Assembly (NCBI RefSeq): GCF_029936995.1
Contig: NZ_JAPYRE010000001.1
Location: 496,001-560,000 of the forward strand
Origin: Henriciella sp.
GTDB taxonomy: Bacteria; Pseudomonadota; Alphaproteobacteria; Caulobacterales; Hyphomonadaceae
Direction of reading: 5' to 3'
DNA length: 64,000 nucleotides
In this document: piece after piece, positions 4,753 to 58,769 of the stretch
Layout: each line of letters starts with the position of its first letter
How positions within the stretch are numbered: the first letter of the stretch is position 1
Made by a program: the position numbers and the translations under genes
The notes under the pieces: generated by a model
What the model was told of the DNA's origin: nothing
Database searches by the model: none
Seen by the model: only the letters and a program-made list of their open reading frames with translations

Positions 4753-5997
4753 ATGTCCCTCAGGCATTCAGGCAAGGCGATGAAAAAGACCCCGCTCAAT
4801 GTTCAGCCACACTCCGGCAAGGTGACCGAAGTAAACCTCTCATCGCTGGAGGAGAGAGGCGACCTCTCGAAGACATCAGAGGAGCATATGTCTGGGGGCG
4901 AGCAGGAACAGGCTCCCCGTAGAGCAAAACGGTCAGAAGATGCCCCCTATTCACCTGCTGATGCGTTTTTCGAGAATATCGTGGCGACGCTCCGTAACCT
5001 GCTGGCTGTCGAGTCGGCGACGATCTCTGTTACGGATGGCCAGCAAAGATGGCTCAAAGCTTCTTCAGGACTTGAGAGCGAGGACATCTACAGCGACGTT
5101 AAATTCTATGCGGGTGTACCAATACGCACGGATGACGAGGAGATAATCGGCACGCTGTCGGCTCTGGATTCCAGTGAAAAGAAACTCACGCGAAACCAGC
5201 TTGAGGGCATGGAGAATATCGCCAGGGTGGTGACGGATTTCTTCAAGCTCCGGCAGCTGGCATCGAATGACGGACTGACAGGCCTTCTGACCCGCAGGGC
5301 CTTTGAGGAACAAAGCAACAGGGTCACGCAGCTCTGTGCCCGTCACAGGCATAATCTGAACCTGATCTGTTTCGATCTCGATCACTTCAAGTCCATTAAC
5401 GATACGTATGGTCATCAGGCTGGCGACAGCGTCCTCCAGTCCGTGGCGAAGACTTGTACGTCTCATCTGCGTCAAAGCGACATATTCGGTCGGCTCGGCG
5501 GGGAGGAGTTTGCCCTGTTGTTGCCCCAGACAGATGAAAGTGGCGCTGTACTCGTGGCCGAAAAACTGCGCCGGGCCATTGCGGCTTTGCGGTTCGATTT
5601 TTCGGGCAAGACTGTGGGTGTAACAGCGAGTTTTGGCATCGCCGGCCAGAAGGACCGCCAGTACGACCTTCCCACGCTTATAGGGCGTGCCGATGCGTCG
5701 ATGTATGAAGCCAAACAGAACGGTCGGAACAGATGCATTGCCTGGGGACAGGCGGATGTTGTCCAACGGGTGGTTCGCCGGCGTGTGCTGAAGGCCGGCC
5801 AGATTGTCTTCGCGGGTAATGTTGCCTCGATTGATTGTACTGTCCGTTCGCTCGGTCAGGAGGGGGCAGGTCTTGATCTCGTTACGACGACGAATGTGCC
5901 GGATGAATTCCGCCTGCTGATCCGCTCGGATAATCTCAGCGTGTCCTGCAAGGTCTTGTCACGCACGCGAACCCACCTGGAGGTCGAATTTCGCTAG
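4753..5997 (+). CDS. GGDEF diguanylate cyclase-like protein with degenerate GAF and C-terminal PilZ-like domain
   Basis: Three parts are visible: a charged, probably disordered leader (about residues 1-60); a short GAF-like region ending in FYAGVPIRTDDEEIIGTLSALD; a GGDEF domain with DLDHFKSINDTYGHQAGD, active-site motif GGEEF and an RxxD inhibitory site (RQSD) five residues upstream; and a C-terminal PilZ-like barrel from about RRRVLKAGQIVF to the end. It should make cyclic di-GMP and perhaps bind it through PilZ, although the N/DxSxxG motif is degenerate (SLGQEG). Compared with its neighbour at 6182 the GAF has lost its first part (no LDTPRE-type helix). An alternative start at 4780 has an AAGG site; a GTG at 4750 is also possible. 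Confidence 0.88.
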   Translation: MSLRHSGKAMKKTPLNVQPHSGKVTEVNLSSLEERGDLSKTSEEHMSGGEQEQAPRRAKRSEDAPYSPADAFFENIVATLRNLLAVESATISVTDGQQRWLKASSGLESEDIYSDVKFYAGVPIRTDDEEIIGTLSALDSSEKKLTRNQLEGMENIARVVTDFFKLRQLASNDGLTGLLTRRAFEEQSNRVTQLCARHRHNLNLICFDLDHFKSINDTYGHQAGDSVLQSVAKTCTSHLRQSDIFGRLGGEEFALLLPQTDESGAVLVAEKLRRAIAALRFDFSGKTVGVTASFGIAGQKDRQYDLPTLIGRADASMYEAKQNGRNRCIAWGQADVVQRVVRRRVLKAGQIVFAGNVASIDCTVRSLGQEGAGLDLVTTTNVPDEFRLLIRSDNLSVSCKVLSRTRTHLEVEFR

Positions 5998-6181
5998 GCG
6001 CCTTTTCCCGGGATTGGCATTCTGAAAGCCCGACAATACCGGCCAGGTGGGGCTGTTGCACCCAATGCCTACAATTTCCACGATCTGGTAACCCGGCCCT
6101 AACGTCGGTACGTAATAATCAAATAGAGCTATACTGTGCAGGAAAGTCCCGTTTTTCTTCCAAGCGCAGGAAAGGAATGAC

Positions 6182-7435
6182 ATGACCATGGACCCCGCCA
6201 GAACGGACGGAGGGCCGCGCAAGGAAACCCGCTACGAAGCGCGACGGCTTGAAGCCGTCCAGTCCATGGGGATACTCGATACCCCGCGTGAAGACAGCTA
6301 CGACCGGATTGTCCGGCTTGTTAGAGCGAGCTTCAACGTGGACATGGCACTCATTTCCATCATCGATGCTCACCGCCAGTGGTATAAGGCGAGTGAGGGG
6401 ATGGACCTGGATGAGGTGCCTGTGCAGGAGACTTTCTGCCGCCGGACGATCAACATGAACGGGCCGCTTGTCGTAAACGATGCGACCAGGCACCCCCTGT
6501 TCAAGGATAATCCCTATGTCACCGGCGAAGCGAATATCCGTTTCTATGCCGGCATCCCTCTCAAGACGAAGAAGGGTTATTCCATCGGCACGATCTGCGC
6601 AGTGGATTCAGAACCACGCGAGTTCAACGCGTCTGACATGCAGATCCTGGATGACCTGGCCTGTATCGTGATCGAGCAGATGGAGCTGCGTGAACGGGCC
6701 ATGACGGACGAGATGACAGGGGCTCTGTCGCGCCGGGCTCTCCGTGACGAGGGCGGGCGGCTTGCGGCCCTTGCGAGCCGGCACAGGCACAACCTCACCG
6801 CGATATGCTTCGATCTCGATCATTTCAAATCAATCAACGACACCTATGGGCACGCCGCTGGCGATGAGGTTCTCATAAGGGTGGCCGAAACGGTAAAGCA
6901 GAGGATGCGCAAGAGTGACATCTTCGCCCGTGTCGGCGGGGAGGAGTTCGCCATTCTCCTGCCAGAGACGGACCGCAAAGGGGCGATGGAAGTCGCTGAG
7001 AAACTGCGCAGGGATATTTCCGGCTTGCGCTTCGAATTCAAGGAAAAGACCATCGGCGTGACGGCGAGTTTCGGTGTCGCGGCTTTCGATATCGAGACCA
7101 AGGATCTCGACATGCTGCTCGTCAGGGCAGATGCGGCACTCTACCAGTCGAAGAATGATGGCCGGAACCGGTGTACAGGCTGGGGCACAGGCGACGTCTC
7201 GGTAAAGTCGGCCCGGCGGCGTGTCCTCAAGGCAGGCAAGATCAGCTTCATGAATGGTGGCGCCTCTATAGACTGTACCGTGCGCACACTCGGTCAGGAG
7301 GGTGCAGGGATGGACCTGATCTCGACAGCGAACGTGCCGGACGAGTTCCGTCTCATCATTCGTTCCGACGGGCTGGATGCCTCATGCCGTGTCACCCAGC
7401 GCACACGCACGCACCTTGAGGTGGACTTCCGCTAG
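6182..7435 (+). CDS. GAF-GGDEF-PilZ diguanylate cyclase-like protein
   Basis: A 417-residue paralogue of the preceding gene. Residues about 20-170 form a complete GAF sensor beginning with RRLEAVQSMGILDTPRE; residues about 175-335 form the GGDEF domain with DLDHFKSINDTYGHAAGDE, GGEEF at 252-256 and an intact inhibitory RxxD (RKSD, 243-246); the last 75 residues are a PilZ-like barrel (RRRVLKAGKISF...THLEVDFR) nearly identical in pattern to that of the neighbour. It should synthesise cyclic di-GMP under control of a small ligand or redox state sensed by GAF, with product feedback. The 184-base gap before it suggests its own promoter. The stop overlaps the convergent gene by three bases. Confidence 0.9.
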   Translation: MTMDPARTDGGPRKETRYEARRLEAVQSMGILDTPREDSYDRIVRLVRASFNVDMALISIIDAHRQWYKASEGMDLDEVPVQETFCRRTINMNGPLVVNDATRHPLFKDNPYVTGEANIRFYAGIPLKTKKGYSIGTICAVDSEPREFNASDMQILDDLACIVIEQMELRERAMTDEMTGALSRRALRDEGGRLAALASRHRHNLTAICFDLDHFKSINDTYGHAAGDEVLIRVAETVKQRMRKSDIFARVGGEEFAILLPETDRKGAMEVAEKLRRDISGLRFEFKEKTIGVTASFGVAAFDIETKDLDMLLVRADAALYQSKNDGRNRCTGWGTGDVSVKSARRRVLKAGKISFMNGGASIDCTVRTLGQEGAGMDLISTANVPDEFRLIIRSDGLDASCRVTQRTRTHLEVDFR

Positions 7436-8685: not shown

Positions 8686-9513
8686 TCACGCACGTATCTG
8701 TCGCAAGTCTTGCCTCCATGCGTACCCGCCACGAGAAAGCGGCCTCTCTGGCGGTCCTGCCATGGAGGCGTATGCGGTTACAGGGAGCCAGGCCGCCAGA
8801 CCAGGCGGCCCGCGCCGGATCTCCGAGGTGAGATGGGCAAGCGCGTCCTTCAGCCAGGGCGGTGTGTGGGGTGAGCGATAGCCCGGCGGCCAGCCGGGGC
8901 GAACGGGCGAGGTGCGCCCCCGTTCCAGCGGCGGCAGGGCGGCTTTCCGGGCAAGGAAGCGGGCATGACGCCGGGCCAGCTTTTCCGGGTTTTCGAGAAT
9001 GGCCTGAAGCCCGCGCAGCCGCGCGATGAGCGGCGCGGCGGACGCGTCGTCTTCTGCTGTATCTGTGACAGGGGCCGCCGGGTAGGGCGCATCGAGGCAG
9101 AGGATGCGCGGCCCGATGCCGGGCACGTAAACCGGGCGCGGCCTGCGCCGGCGCGTATAGAGTGTTTCGAAGAGCTGGAAATGTGTGGTGGTGGCGCCGT
9201 CATCCCGGACACGCGAGGCGTGATCCGGGACCTGCTTCCGGGTGGCACTGGGTCCCGGCACGCCCTCCGGGCGGCCGGGATGACGGCCCACCTCCACCTC
9301 CCGCGCCATCAGGACGATGAGGCGGCGGGTCAGCGCTTCGGCAGGGCGCAGCAGGCGCAATATGTAGCGGCGCAGGGCATGCGGGATACGCTCCGGCCCG
9401 GCACCGTCGACCACACCGGCAAGCAGCATCAGCCGGGCGAGCAGCGCTTCAAGCTGCGGCCGGATACGCGCCATCGCGCCCTGAAGATGCCGGTCTGTCT
9501 GCGGTCTCGTCAT
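8686..9513 (-). CDS. Conserved hypothetical protein interrupted in frame by a palindromic repeat element
   Basis: The 275-residue, strongly basic frame has two amphipathic helical blocks (LQGAMARIRPQLEALLARLM; HALRRYILRLLRPAEALTRR) near the N-terminus and a later conserved-looking part (YVPGIGPRILCLDAPYP; LIARLRGLQAILENPEKLAR). Residues about 76-106 are encoded by a 92-bp palindromic element whose translation (GRHPGRPEGVPGPSATRKQV) is a repeat-derived peptide, not ordinary protein. The frame stays open through the element, so the gene product probably tolerates it as a linker. I set the start at the ATG at 9513; the longer frame begins inside another repeat. No function is recognised and no signal peptide or membrane span is visible. 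Confidence 0.65.
   Translation of the reverse strand: MTRPQTDRHLQGAMARIRPQLEALLARLMLLAGVVDGAGPERIPHALRRYILRLLRPAEALTRRLIVLMAREVEVGRHPGRPEGVPGPSATRKQVPDHASRVRDDGATTTHFQLFETLYTRRRRPRPVYVPGIGPRILCLDAPYPAAPVTDTAEDDASAAPLIARLRGLQAILENPEKLARRHARFLARKAALPPLERGRTSPVRPGWPPGYRSPHTPPWLKDALAHLTSEIRRGPPGLAAWLPVTAYASMAGPPERPLSRGGYAWRQDLRQIRA
9196..9287. repeat. Palindromic repeat element lying inside a coding sequence
   Basis: Perfect 13-bp terminal arms GCCGTCATCCCGG and CCGGGATGACGGC bound a 92-bp unit; a second inner stem pairs CCGGGACC (about 9226) with GGTCCCGG (about 9251). The same architecture, outer GTCATCCCGG arms with inner CCGGGACC stem, occurs at 58637-58741. This matches the intergenic palindromic units common in alphaproteobacterial genomes, but here it sits within the gene at 8686-9513 and is translated. 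Confidence 0.85.
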
Positions 9514-9619
9514 GGTGTGAGGACGGTACACCAGGAGTCCGGCTGTAGGACGTATTGGTGTAGCGGCACCCGTGCTTACACGCGTAGGCGGGAATCTCAT
9601 GCAGCGCGCGCCGGACCTT

Positions 9620-9849: not shown

Positions 9850-10457
9850 TGTACTACTCACTCTCCAAGTGCCATCGCCCGGGCCGTTCTGGCGCCGGGG
9901 ATGATAGCACGATTTGCCTCTGGAGACTGCCGGACGCCATGTCCGTGCAGGCAGGAGCAGCGCCTGTCTCGCGGGTGAGGGCTCGCCCCATGCGCGAGTC
10001 GCGCAACTGAAATATCGCTTCATGCGCGAATAAACGCAACGGGCTTTCGCGCGAGGCTTGGGTGAAATTTTGGAGAGGATTGGGGCACTATCTGCTGGAT
10101 CGTGTCACGCGCCCCCGCGGTTTACGCGGTCTGAGTGCCCGGCTTTTAAGTCTCTGGTTTTTACGCGCTTTGTAAGGATCAGGAGATGGGCTCTCAGAGC
10201 GTTGTCCTGTCGAGGGAGACGCCTGCCTTGGATATGGGGCGAGCCAGTTTTTGCCGCGGATACCTGCGCAGGCAGGTATCCATGGCGCTGTGTCGCTAAG
10301 GATGTCCCATGGGTCCCTGCCTGCGCAGGGACCGGCGGAGAGAGTGGGTTCTGGAAAAGATTTTGGGCGGTGTCCGATCCGTGTCAGGCGGTCAAGGGCG
10401 CATGCCCGCTGCGCTCTGTACCTGTCTAGACACAGCACTTTCTATGGCCTTGAACTC
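9850..10457. other. Non-coding, repeat-rich gap of about 600 bases
   Basis: No frame here has convincing composition; the open frames present are short and overlap one another on both strands. The interval holds the paired inverted hairpins at 10256-10335. It separates the short Lys/Pro-rich ORF from the lower-GC gene at 10458 and may be a site where repeats and foreign DNA accumulate. Confidence 0.6.
10256..10335. repeat. Pair of inverted hairpins (CCTGCGCAGGCAGG family)
   Basis: The hairpin GGATACCTGC-GCAG-GCAGGTATCC (10258-10281) is followed 30 bases later by GGTCCCTG...CAGGGACC (10312-10333). The second unit is an inverted copy of the first: read on the other strand it gives CCTGCGCAGGCAGG flanked by GTCCC/GGGAC in place of ATACC/GGTAT. 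The arms have changed together so that base-pairing is kept, which suggests that structure is what is conserved. Confidence 0.75.
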
Positions 10458-58624: not shown

Positions 58625-58636
58625 AGGCGAAAGTCT

Positions 58637-58741
58637 CGTCATCCCGTACGGCCCGCAGAGACGGTCCGGGACCCATGATGAAGAAGGGGCGCCAGACAGA
58701 TCTGGGTCCCGGTTCTCCGCTTCGCGGCGGCCGGGATGACG
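58637..58741. repeat. Palindromic repeat element within the gcv operon
   Basis: Terminal arms CGTCATCCCG and CGGGATGACG (10 bp, perfect) bound the unit; an inner perfect stem pairs CCGGGACCCA (58666-58675) with TGGGTCCCGG (58703-58712), giving a branched fold. It is the same family as the element at 9196-9287. It lies between gcvH and gcvPA, so its RNA form is inside the operon transcript. Confidence 0.82.
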
Positions 58742-58769
58742 CCCGAAAGAGCGCACAGGAGCGTGAGAG

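Follow-up and report, generated by a model that had tools for sequence, protein, structure and literature searches.

The idea that selfish palindromes can supply usable protein has been argued largely from Rickettsia, which are obligate intracellular bacteria, and a locus in Henriciella raises the question of whether dispersed repeat DNA has been turned into protein there as well. The window, i.e., the whole stretch of 64,000 nucleotides that was analysed, carries a 92-bp palindrome with perfect 13-bp arms (GCCGTCATCCCGG/CCGGGATGACGGC) at positions 9196-9287. This palindrome lies within the open minus-strand frame 8686-9513, where it codes for residues 76-106 (peptide GRHPGRPEGVPGPSATRKQVPDHASRVRDDG, rich in Arg, Pro and Gly). 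Both the palindrome and its in-frame placement had been put forward in a preliminary description of this DNA and were borne out. When mismatches are allowed, the arms reach 37 nt and are 76% complementary, and the folding energy of the element is -63.6 kcal/mol on the plus strand and -64.0 kcal/mol on the minus strand (z of -4.4 and -6.2, respectively). The element is GC-rich (76% GC), as might be expected of a chance palindrome within a low-complexity linker, but such an origin is excluded by the fold, for which 0 of 200 shuffles per strand was equally stable, and by the presence of the same element at no fewer than 12 genomic loci. Four of its six frames are open, so that most landings would run into no stop. 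A search of Rfam with positions 9100-9400 gave five weak matches, none of them close to the gathering score.

The element at 9196-9287, taken as a whole without a strand, is a head-to-head dimer of two CGTC-tagged REP-like repeats. Unit 1 (9198-9234, plus strand) has the tag CGTC, the stem TCCCGGA/TCCGGGA and the end CCTG; unit 2 (9249-9285), in inverted orientation on the minus strand, has the tag CGTC, the stem TCCCGGC/GCCGGGA and the end CCCA. Both units start with CGTCAT and share a TCCCGG/CCGGGA stem, which is followed by CC and two further bases.

The dispersal of the element was followed with two models, a dimer model (R1; 105 positions, built from six genomic copies) and a unit model (R2; 39 positions, built from 15 units of eight copies), the window copy being included in the training sets of both. 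Using R2, at least 12 loci were found at E <= 1e-4 in the 3.4-Mb Henriciella genome (21 rows, merged by hand into 13 loci, one of them at E 0.01), and 11 of these 12 were also recovered by R1, including the one on contig C10 with its deletion. It should be noted that R1 and R2 scores were obtained for the best 150 candidates only (of 5238 first-look candidates for R2), the counts being lower bounds, and that three of the at least 12 loci are copies of one insertion, in copies of one gene. Both units were detected by R2 at 8 of the 12 loci, and a single one at C9:122300.

All 15 aligned units start with CGTCAT, as does a sixteenth outside the alignment (the right half of L060), a result that is partly selection given that the units were located via this string. 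By eye, the tail is CCA in 9 of the 15 aligned units and CTG, CTA, CCG or CCAG in the remainder. The conserved stem measures 7 bp, with 95.2% of 105 cells paired, and the arms are separated by 10-17 nt, partly paired in some units. Two-sided changes are confined to the innermost pair, which is changed on both sides in 7 of the 15 units and unpaired in 2, and four of the seven stem pairs are invariant.

Within the genus, matches at E <= 1e-4 were observed in at least 21 of 29 genomes, with a maximum of at least 73 in one of them (G012). In the Henriciella genome studied here, the repeat lies mostly outside known genes. Nineteen open frames cover the nine other loci, and a Pfam scan of 10 frames over eight of these loci revealed one domain, located wholly downstream of the element, bearing in mind that frames without a domain may still be genes. 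The element was found in frame in copies of one gene family only. PF01797 (Y1_Tnp, RAYT-type) had no match in the own genome (the control matched in 5 of 14 genomes, and the search covers the Y1 family alone), and no consistent target-site duplication was seen among the own-genome copies inspected by eye. A second CGTC-type REP dimer is present in the window at 58636-58742, where the covering frame that was scanned has no Pfam domain. CGTC-type REP units also adjoin other members of the host gene family upstream (L027, 738-1132; L032, 2265-2298).

REPs with a CGTC tag were described by Di Nocera, De Gregorio and Rocco (2013; PMC3733652), mainly in alphaproteobacteria and with no linked transposase. 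According to the parts of that paper on which we draw, head-to-head dimers predominate, the CGTC tag is followed by AT and the tails are mostly CCA. These REPs are mostly intergenic, some of them lie within genes in several species, and the majority of the intragenic inserts consist of dimers or groups that code for 20-30 residues. The Henriciella element resembles them in its CGTCAT start, its hairpin stem, its tail (often CCA), its head-to-head dimers and its alphaproteobacterial host, and its in-frame dimer codes for ~30 residues. In contrast, its stem of 7 bp and loop of 10-17 nt differ from those of CGTC-1 to CGTC-4, which are 8-9 bp and 4-5 nt long in Table 1 of the paper; the text gives other loop lengths in Bradyrhizobium, K. 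olearia and M. prima. Since both sizes fall outside Table 1, the element is best treated as a variant of the CGTC-tagged REP superfamily and not as a member of CGTC-1 to CGTC-4. The same source equates RPE-4 and RPE-6 with CGTC repeats, and the parts of it used here contain no mention of Hyphomonas.

The view that coding insertions of this kind are known chiefly from Rickettsia, from which the preliminary description started, was incomplete, given the REPs within genes of several species in the 2013 account (PMC3733652). The Rickettsia palindromic elements (Ogata 2000, 2002, as presented in the portion of the review PMC10969869 used here) measure ~150 bp and occur in many unrelated genes. The likeness lies in palindromic selfish DNA that is in frame in alphaproteobacterial protein-coding genes, whereas one insertion in one gene family was found here. 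In-frame REPs as protein sequence are already known, and the Henriciella element is a further clear case of this rare route.

The host gene (8686-9513, minus strand) encodes an uncharacterised protein of 275 residues, which belongs to a multi-copy alphaproteobacterial family with homologues in many genomes. Although its open frame continues upstream as far as an ATG at 9600, comparison with homologues speaks for a start at the ATG at 9513; the stop is at 8686. The stretch directly upstream (9514-9563, same strand) is common to copy 3 of the gene, on C10, and has no counterpart in copy 2; promoter-like motifs were seen by eye before several family members, this stretch included. At the other end, positions 8686-8796 (minus strand) form a C-terminal extension of 36 codons and the stop, past the end of the DNA homology with copy 2, and this extension may likewise come from repeat DNA.

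The window protein matched nothing in Pfam, NCBIfam or PHROG, and a Foldseek search of its AlphaFold model against the PDB gave no match (E <= 10). Among 27 members, single other ones had stray matches in Pfam and NCBIfam (E 0.013-0.082). Homologues were found in 17 of 61 genomes searched (E <= 0.001) and in 15 of 105 family genomes (E <= 1e-12), the own genome included in both cases, and the M. alhagi protein used as a query had a match in 10 of 11 chosen genomes (E <= 1e-10). A scan with two conserved peptide patterns over one genome per species (84,980 species) returned at least 80 stretches; among the matches listed, 58 relatives belong to Henriciella and to Rhizobiales (such as Mesorhizobium, Oricola and Chelativorans). 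The nearest homologues, within Henriciella, are ~50% identical and have unrelated linkers, and a fourth, distant family member (39%) lies on C11 of the own genome.

The gene family is real, homology being aligned on both sides of the repeat. This also bears on whether the palindrome might be extragenic, i.e., an ordinary intergenic REP between two short genes or one lying in a spurious frame. Such a view would agree with the mostly intergenic position of REPs in the cited parts of PMC3733652 and with the four open frames of the element, but it is nearly excluded by the repeat-free homologous proteins of many genomes, which align in one frame across both sides.

The family is amplified in Rhizobiales, where merging of rows by hand gave 16 places in M. 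ephedrae (from 23 rows) and 23 in Oricola nitratireducens (from 36 rows), and DTS or DSS forms the C-terminal end of most Rhizobiales copies read. A dense repeat mosaic is found directly upstream of one member (L095, 1500-2750), and pieces of it are common to other copies in the same genome.

AlphaFold places helices at residues 6-31, 45-77, 160-192 and 219-234, and the mean pLDDT is 43-59 in blocks of residues 81 to 150. The repeat falls in this low-confidence linker behind helix 2, which is probably disordered in view of the model, whose alignment comprises 27 rows and whose low confidence is no proof of disorder. Measured between the end of helix 2 and the following motif, the linker comprises 38 residues in the window copies and 26-48 in the 25 other Hyphomonadaceae rows, and its length in 35 Rhizobiales rows ranges from 27 to 69 residues. 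In 8 of 10 pairs, a higher share of differences changed the amino acid in the linker than in the sequence outside it; the share was lower in the two Henriciella copies and in L008/L025. Comparing the window gene with copy 2 gave a dN of 0.033 and a dS of 0.064; with L008, the linker being left out, the values were 0.51 and 0.82. Judging from these sequence comparisons, constraint on the window lineage looks weak.

The preliminary description had proposed an insertion that created a tolerated linker, and had looked to a precise absence of the 92-bp unit between conserved flanks as support. One part of this holds, in that a dispersed palindromic element lies in frame in a real gene, in a low-confidence linker. 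Moreover, homologues lack the peptide and have conserved protein on both sides, which argues for a gain. The precise absence, however, was not found: among the homologues aligned there is no exact empty site, the 25 other Hyphomonadaceae rows all carrying their 26-48 residues there. Without the repeat, 7-8 residues of the window linker are left, fewer than in every other row, which makes replacement or reshaping of an older linker seem likelier than a clean insertion. In addition, the repeat measures 88 bp from CGTC to GACG, which is not divisible by 3, so that a pure insertion would require 2 further bases to keep the frame. Two other candidates were rejected. L083, a member of the family in M. 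alhagi, cannot be taken as a clean insertion relative to its sister L081, as both linkers differ. In L008/L025, a small hairpin in the linker had raised the suspicion of a decayed REP, but R2 has no match there, the only L008 match of this model (E 0.19) being upstream of the gene.

Repeats were also observed in the same linker of two relatives. L013, a member from another Hyphomonadaceae genus (G036), has linker DNA that consists of a repeat found at 18 further places in that genome (20 rows, several partial). To the eye, this repeat is a dimer that shares its broad type with that of the window; it matches R1 weakly (E 0.02-0.04) and has no match to R2 at E <= 1. A different palindromic repeat, which recurs at 23 further places in M. 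alhagi (44 rows, several partial), forms the linker DNA of L083. All three repeats, including that of the window, start just behind helix 2. In a tree built without the linker columns from 34 of 62 family rows, the three repeat carriers are placed separately; L083 and L081 are sisters (99/94), L013 forms a long branch, and the split of the window group from the rest is drawn open (83/97). Three independent gains would be the best reading of this tree, short of a proof, and the repeats of L013 and the window may share an older origin.

Inverted repeats with arms of at least 12 nt were then counted in the 62 family genes (27 from Hyphomonadaceae and 35 from Rhizobiales), which are not independent of one another. 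Linkers contain 13 cases vs. 0.30 expected from shuffles (7 in linker 1 and 6 in linker 2, vs. 0.03 and 0.27, respectively), and 1 case lies outside linkers vs. about 1.1 expected. Six of the seven linker-1 cases are M. ephedrae copies, and the linker-2 cases comprise two Henriciella copies, two Oricola copies with simple GT-rich arms, L083 and L016; the 13 cases represent about six independent groups (two for linker 1 and four for linker 2). The count excludes five Rhizobiales loci with cut, short or run-on frames (L080, L094, L096, L097 and L120) and four Hyphomonadaceae loci whose frames were unclear (L023, L028, L030 and L036). Among the 58 scan loci, 11 never entered (L082, L086, L087, L100, L109, L115, L117-L119, L121 and L122), and seven Henriciella loci of the same scan (L065-L071) were unused. 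The linker-1 palindrome of L107 was considered as a dispersed repeat and not supported: it has three M. alhagi matches, one of which is itself and another a further family copy.

These observations lead us to suggest, tentatively and with somewhat less than even confidence, that different dispersed palindromes have landed repeatedly at the junction that follows helix 2, and that they became protein there independently in no fewer than three lineages, spanning Hyphomonadaceae and Rhizobiales. Independent recurrence is weighed down by the L013 repeat, which may share the broad type of the window repeat. If this is true, the family would offer a natural series in which the conversion of repeat DNA into protein could be followed outside Rickettsia. 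A comparable situation is given in the cited parts of PMC3733652 for recB of X. campestris and X. oryzae, where different REPs occupy about the same gene site in different species; the present case differs in that it involves Hyphomonadaceae and Rhizobiales lineages and an uncharacterised multi-copy family. The new element is this recurrence, i.e., other dispersed repeats in the same linker of another Hyphomonadaceae genus and of Mesorhizobium alhagi. Apart from PMC3733652 and the Rickettsia papers, nothing on coding repeats of this type, either for Henriciella or for the present linker, came up in the literature searched, which covers few subscription papers.

That three lineages have dispersed repeats at one and the same place could also be due to a true insertion hotspot, in which a feature of the DNA attracts palindromic repeats, rather than to tolerance by the protein. 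The outer flanks of the window element, GGTGGAGGTGG and CCACCACCAC, are roughly complementary with a one-base offset, and certain published REP families sit within palindromes, as stated in the portion of PMC3733652 used here. However, the lineages were not shown to share a flank motif, palindromes are also found in linker 1, and tolerance alone accounts for the clustering in linkers. We therefore consider a hotspot quite improbable and favour a tolerant linker.

In the own genome, the sole other full and identical copy of the repeat lies in the near-identical second copy of the host gene, and hence represents no independent insertion. This copy 2, on C9, is a 98% match to window positions 8797-9491. 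The upstream stretch and the first 7 codons are missing from it, and its ATG at that end comes from a different palindrome. Copies 1 and 2 are identical over 9014-9402, repeat included, vs. 14 differences in the remaining 306 bp, a pattern that suggests recent gene conversion. Copy 3 lies in two parts, one at the end of C9 and the other at the start of C10. Its repeat, seen at a contig end, lacks 29 bp between two TCCGGG motifs, and the frame then reaches a stop. A frameshift had been named beforehand as a sign of a pseudogene; it occurs in this other copy (C9/C10) and leaves the window copy unaffected. The broken copy suggests a built-in hazard, namely that the palindrome is able to delete part of itself out of frame. 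At the assembly break inside copy 3, 119 bp (equivalent to window 9069-9187) are absent between the two contigs.

The state of these copies could mean that the gene was already decaying in this species, the repeat being a neutral insertion that happens to leave the frame open. One copy of the three has a frameshift within the repeat, copy 2 is truncated at its 5' end with another palindrome in its place, dN/dS on the window lineage is only moderately below 1, and the window copy bears the C-terminal extension. Against this, the window copy has full-length homology, a start, upstream motifs and an open frame, and the sister pair L008/L025 is under clear constraint (dN 0.052, dS 0.231). Decay of the gene thus appears rather unlikely, while deserving to be taken seriously.

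The scheme that we prefer, and that we regard as likely when taken as a whole, is entry of the repeat into a tolerant linker. A non-autonomous head-to-head dimer of CGTC-tagged REPs would have moved into the gene of an uncharacterised helical protein, at the variable linker that follows helix 2, where it probably took the place of some of the earlier linker sequence. The ribosome would read through the repeat, producing ~30 Arg/Pro/Gly-rich disordered residues between two conserved helical parts of a protein that would still be made and work. Selection would tolerate the repeat, perhaps as a neutral change, the linker accepting many sequences and lengths. Duplication and gene conversion would have carried the repeat-containing version into three copies within this genome, and the palindrome of one copy would then have lost its 29 bp between short direct repeats, shifting the frame. 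A family with filled, differently filled and broken versions, together with one repeatedly used linker, would allow the cost and fate of insertions to be measured.

Some further features of the window were observed. A short inverted repeat, GCCTCCATG/CATGGAGGC, was seen by eye at 8714-8772, within the C-terminal extension that is absent from copy 2. A different palindrome lies at 10254-10338, with arms of 32 nt that are 84% complementary, and a relative of it, ~80% identical, is located at the 5' end of copy 2 on C9, where it supplies the ATG. Finally, positions 5340-7368 contain two similar stretches, 1438 bp apart, the translation of which resembles GGDEF domains.
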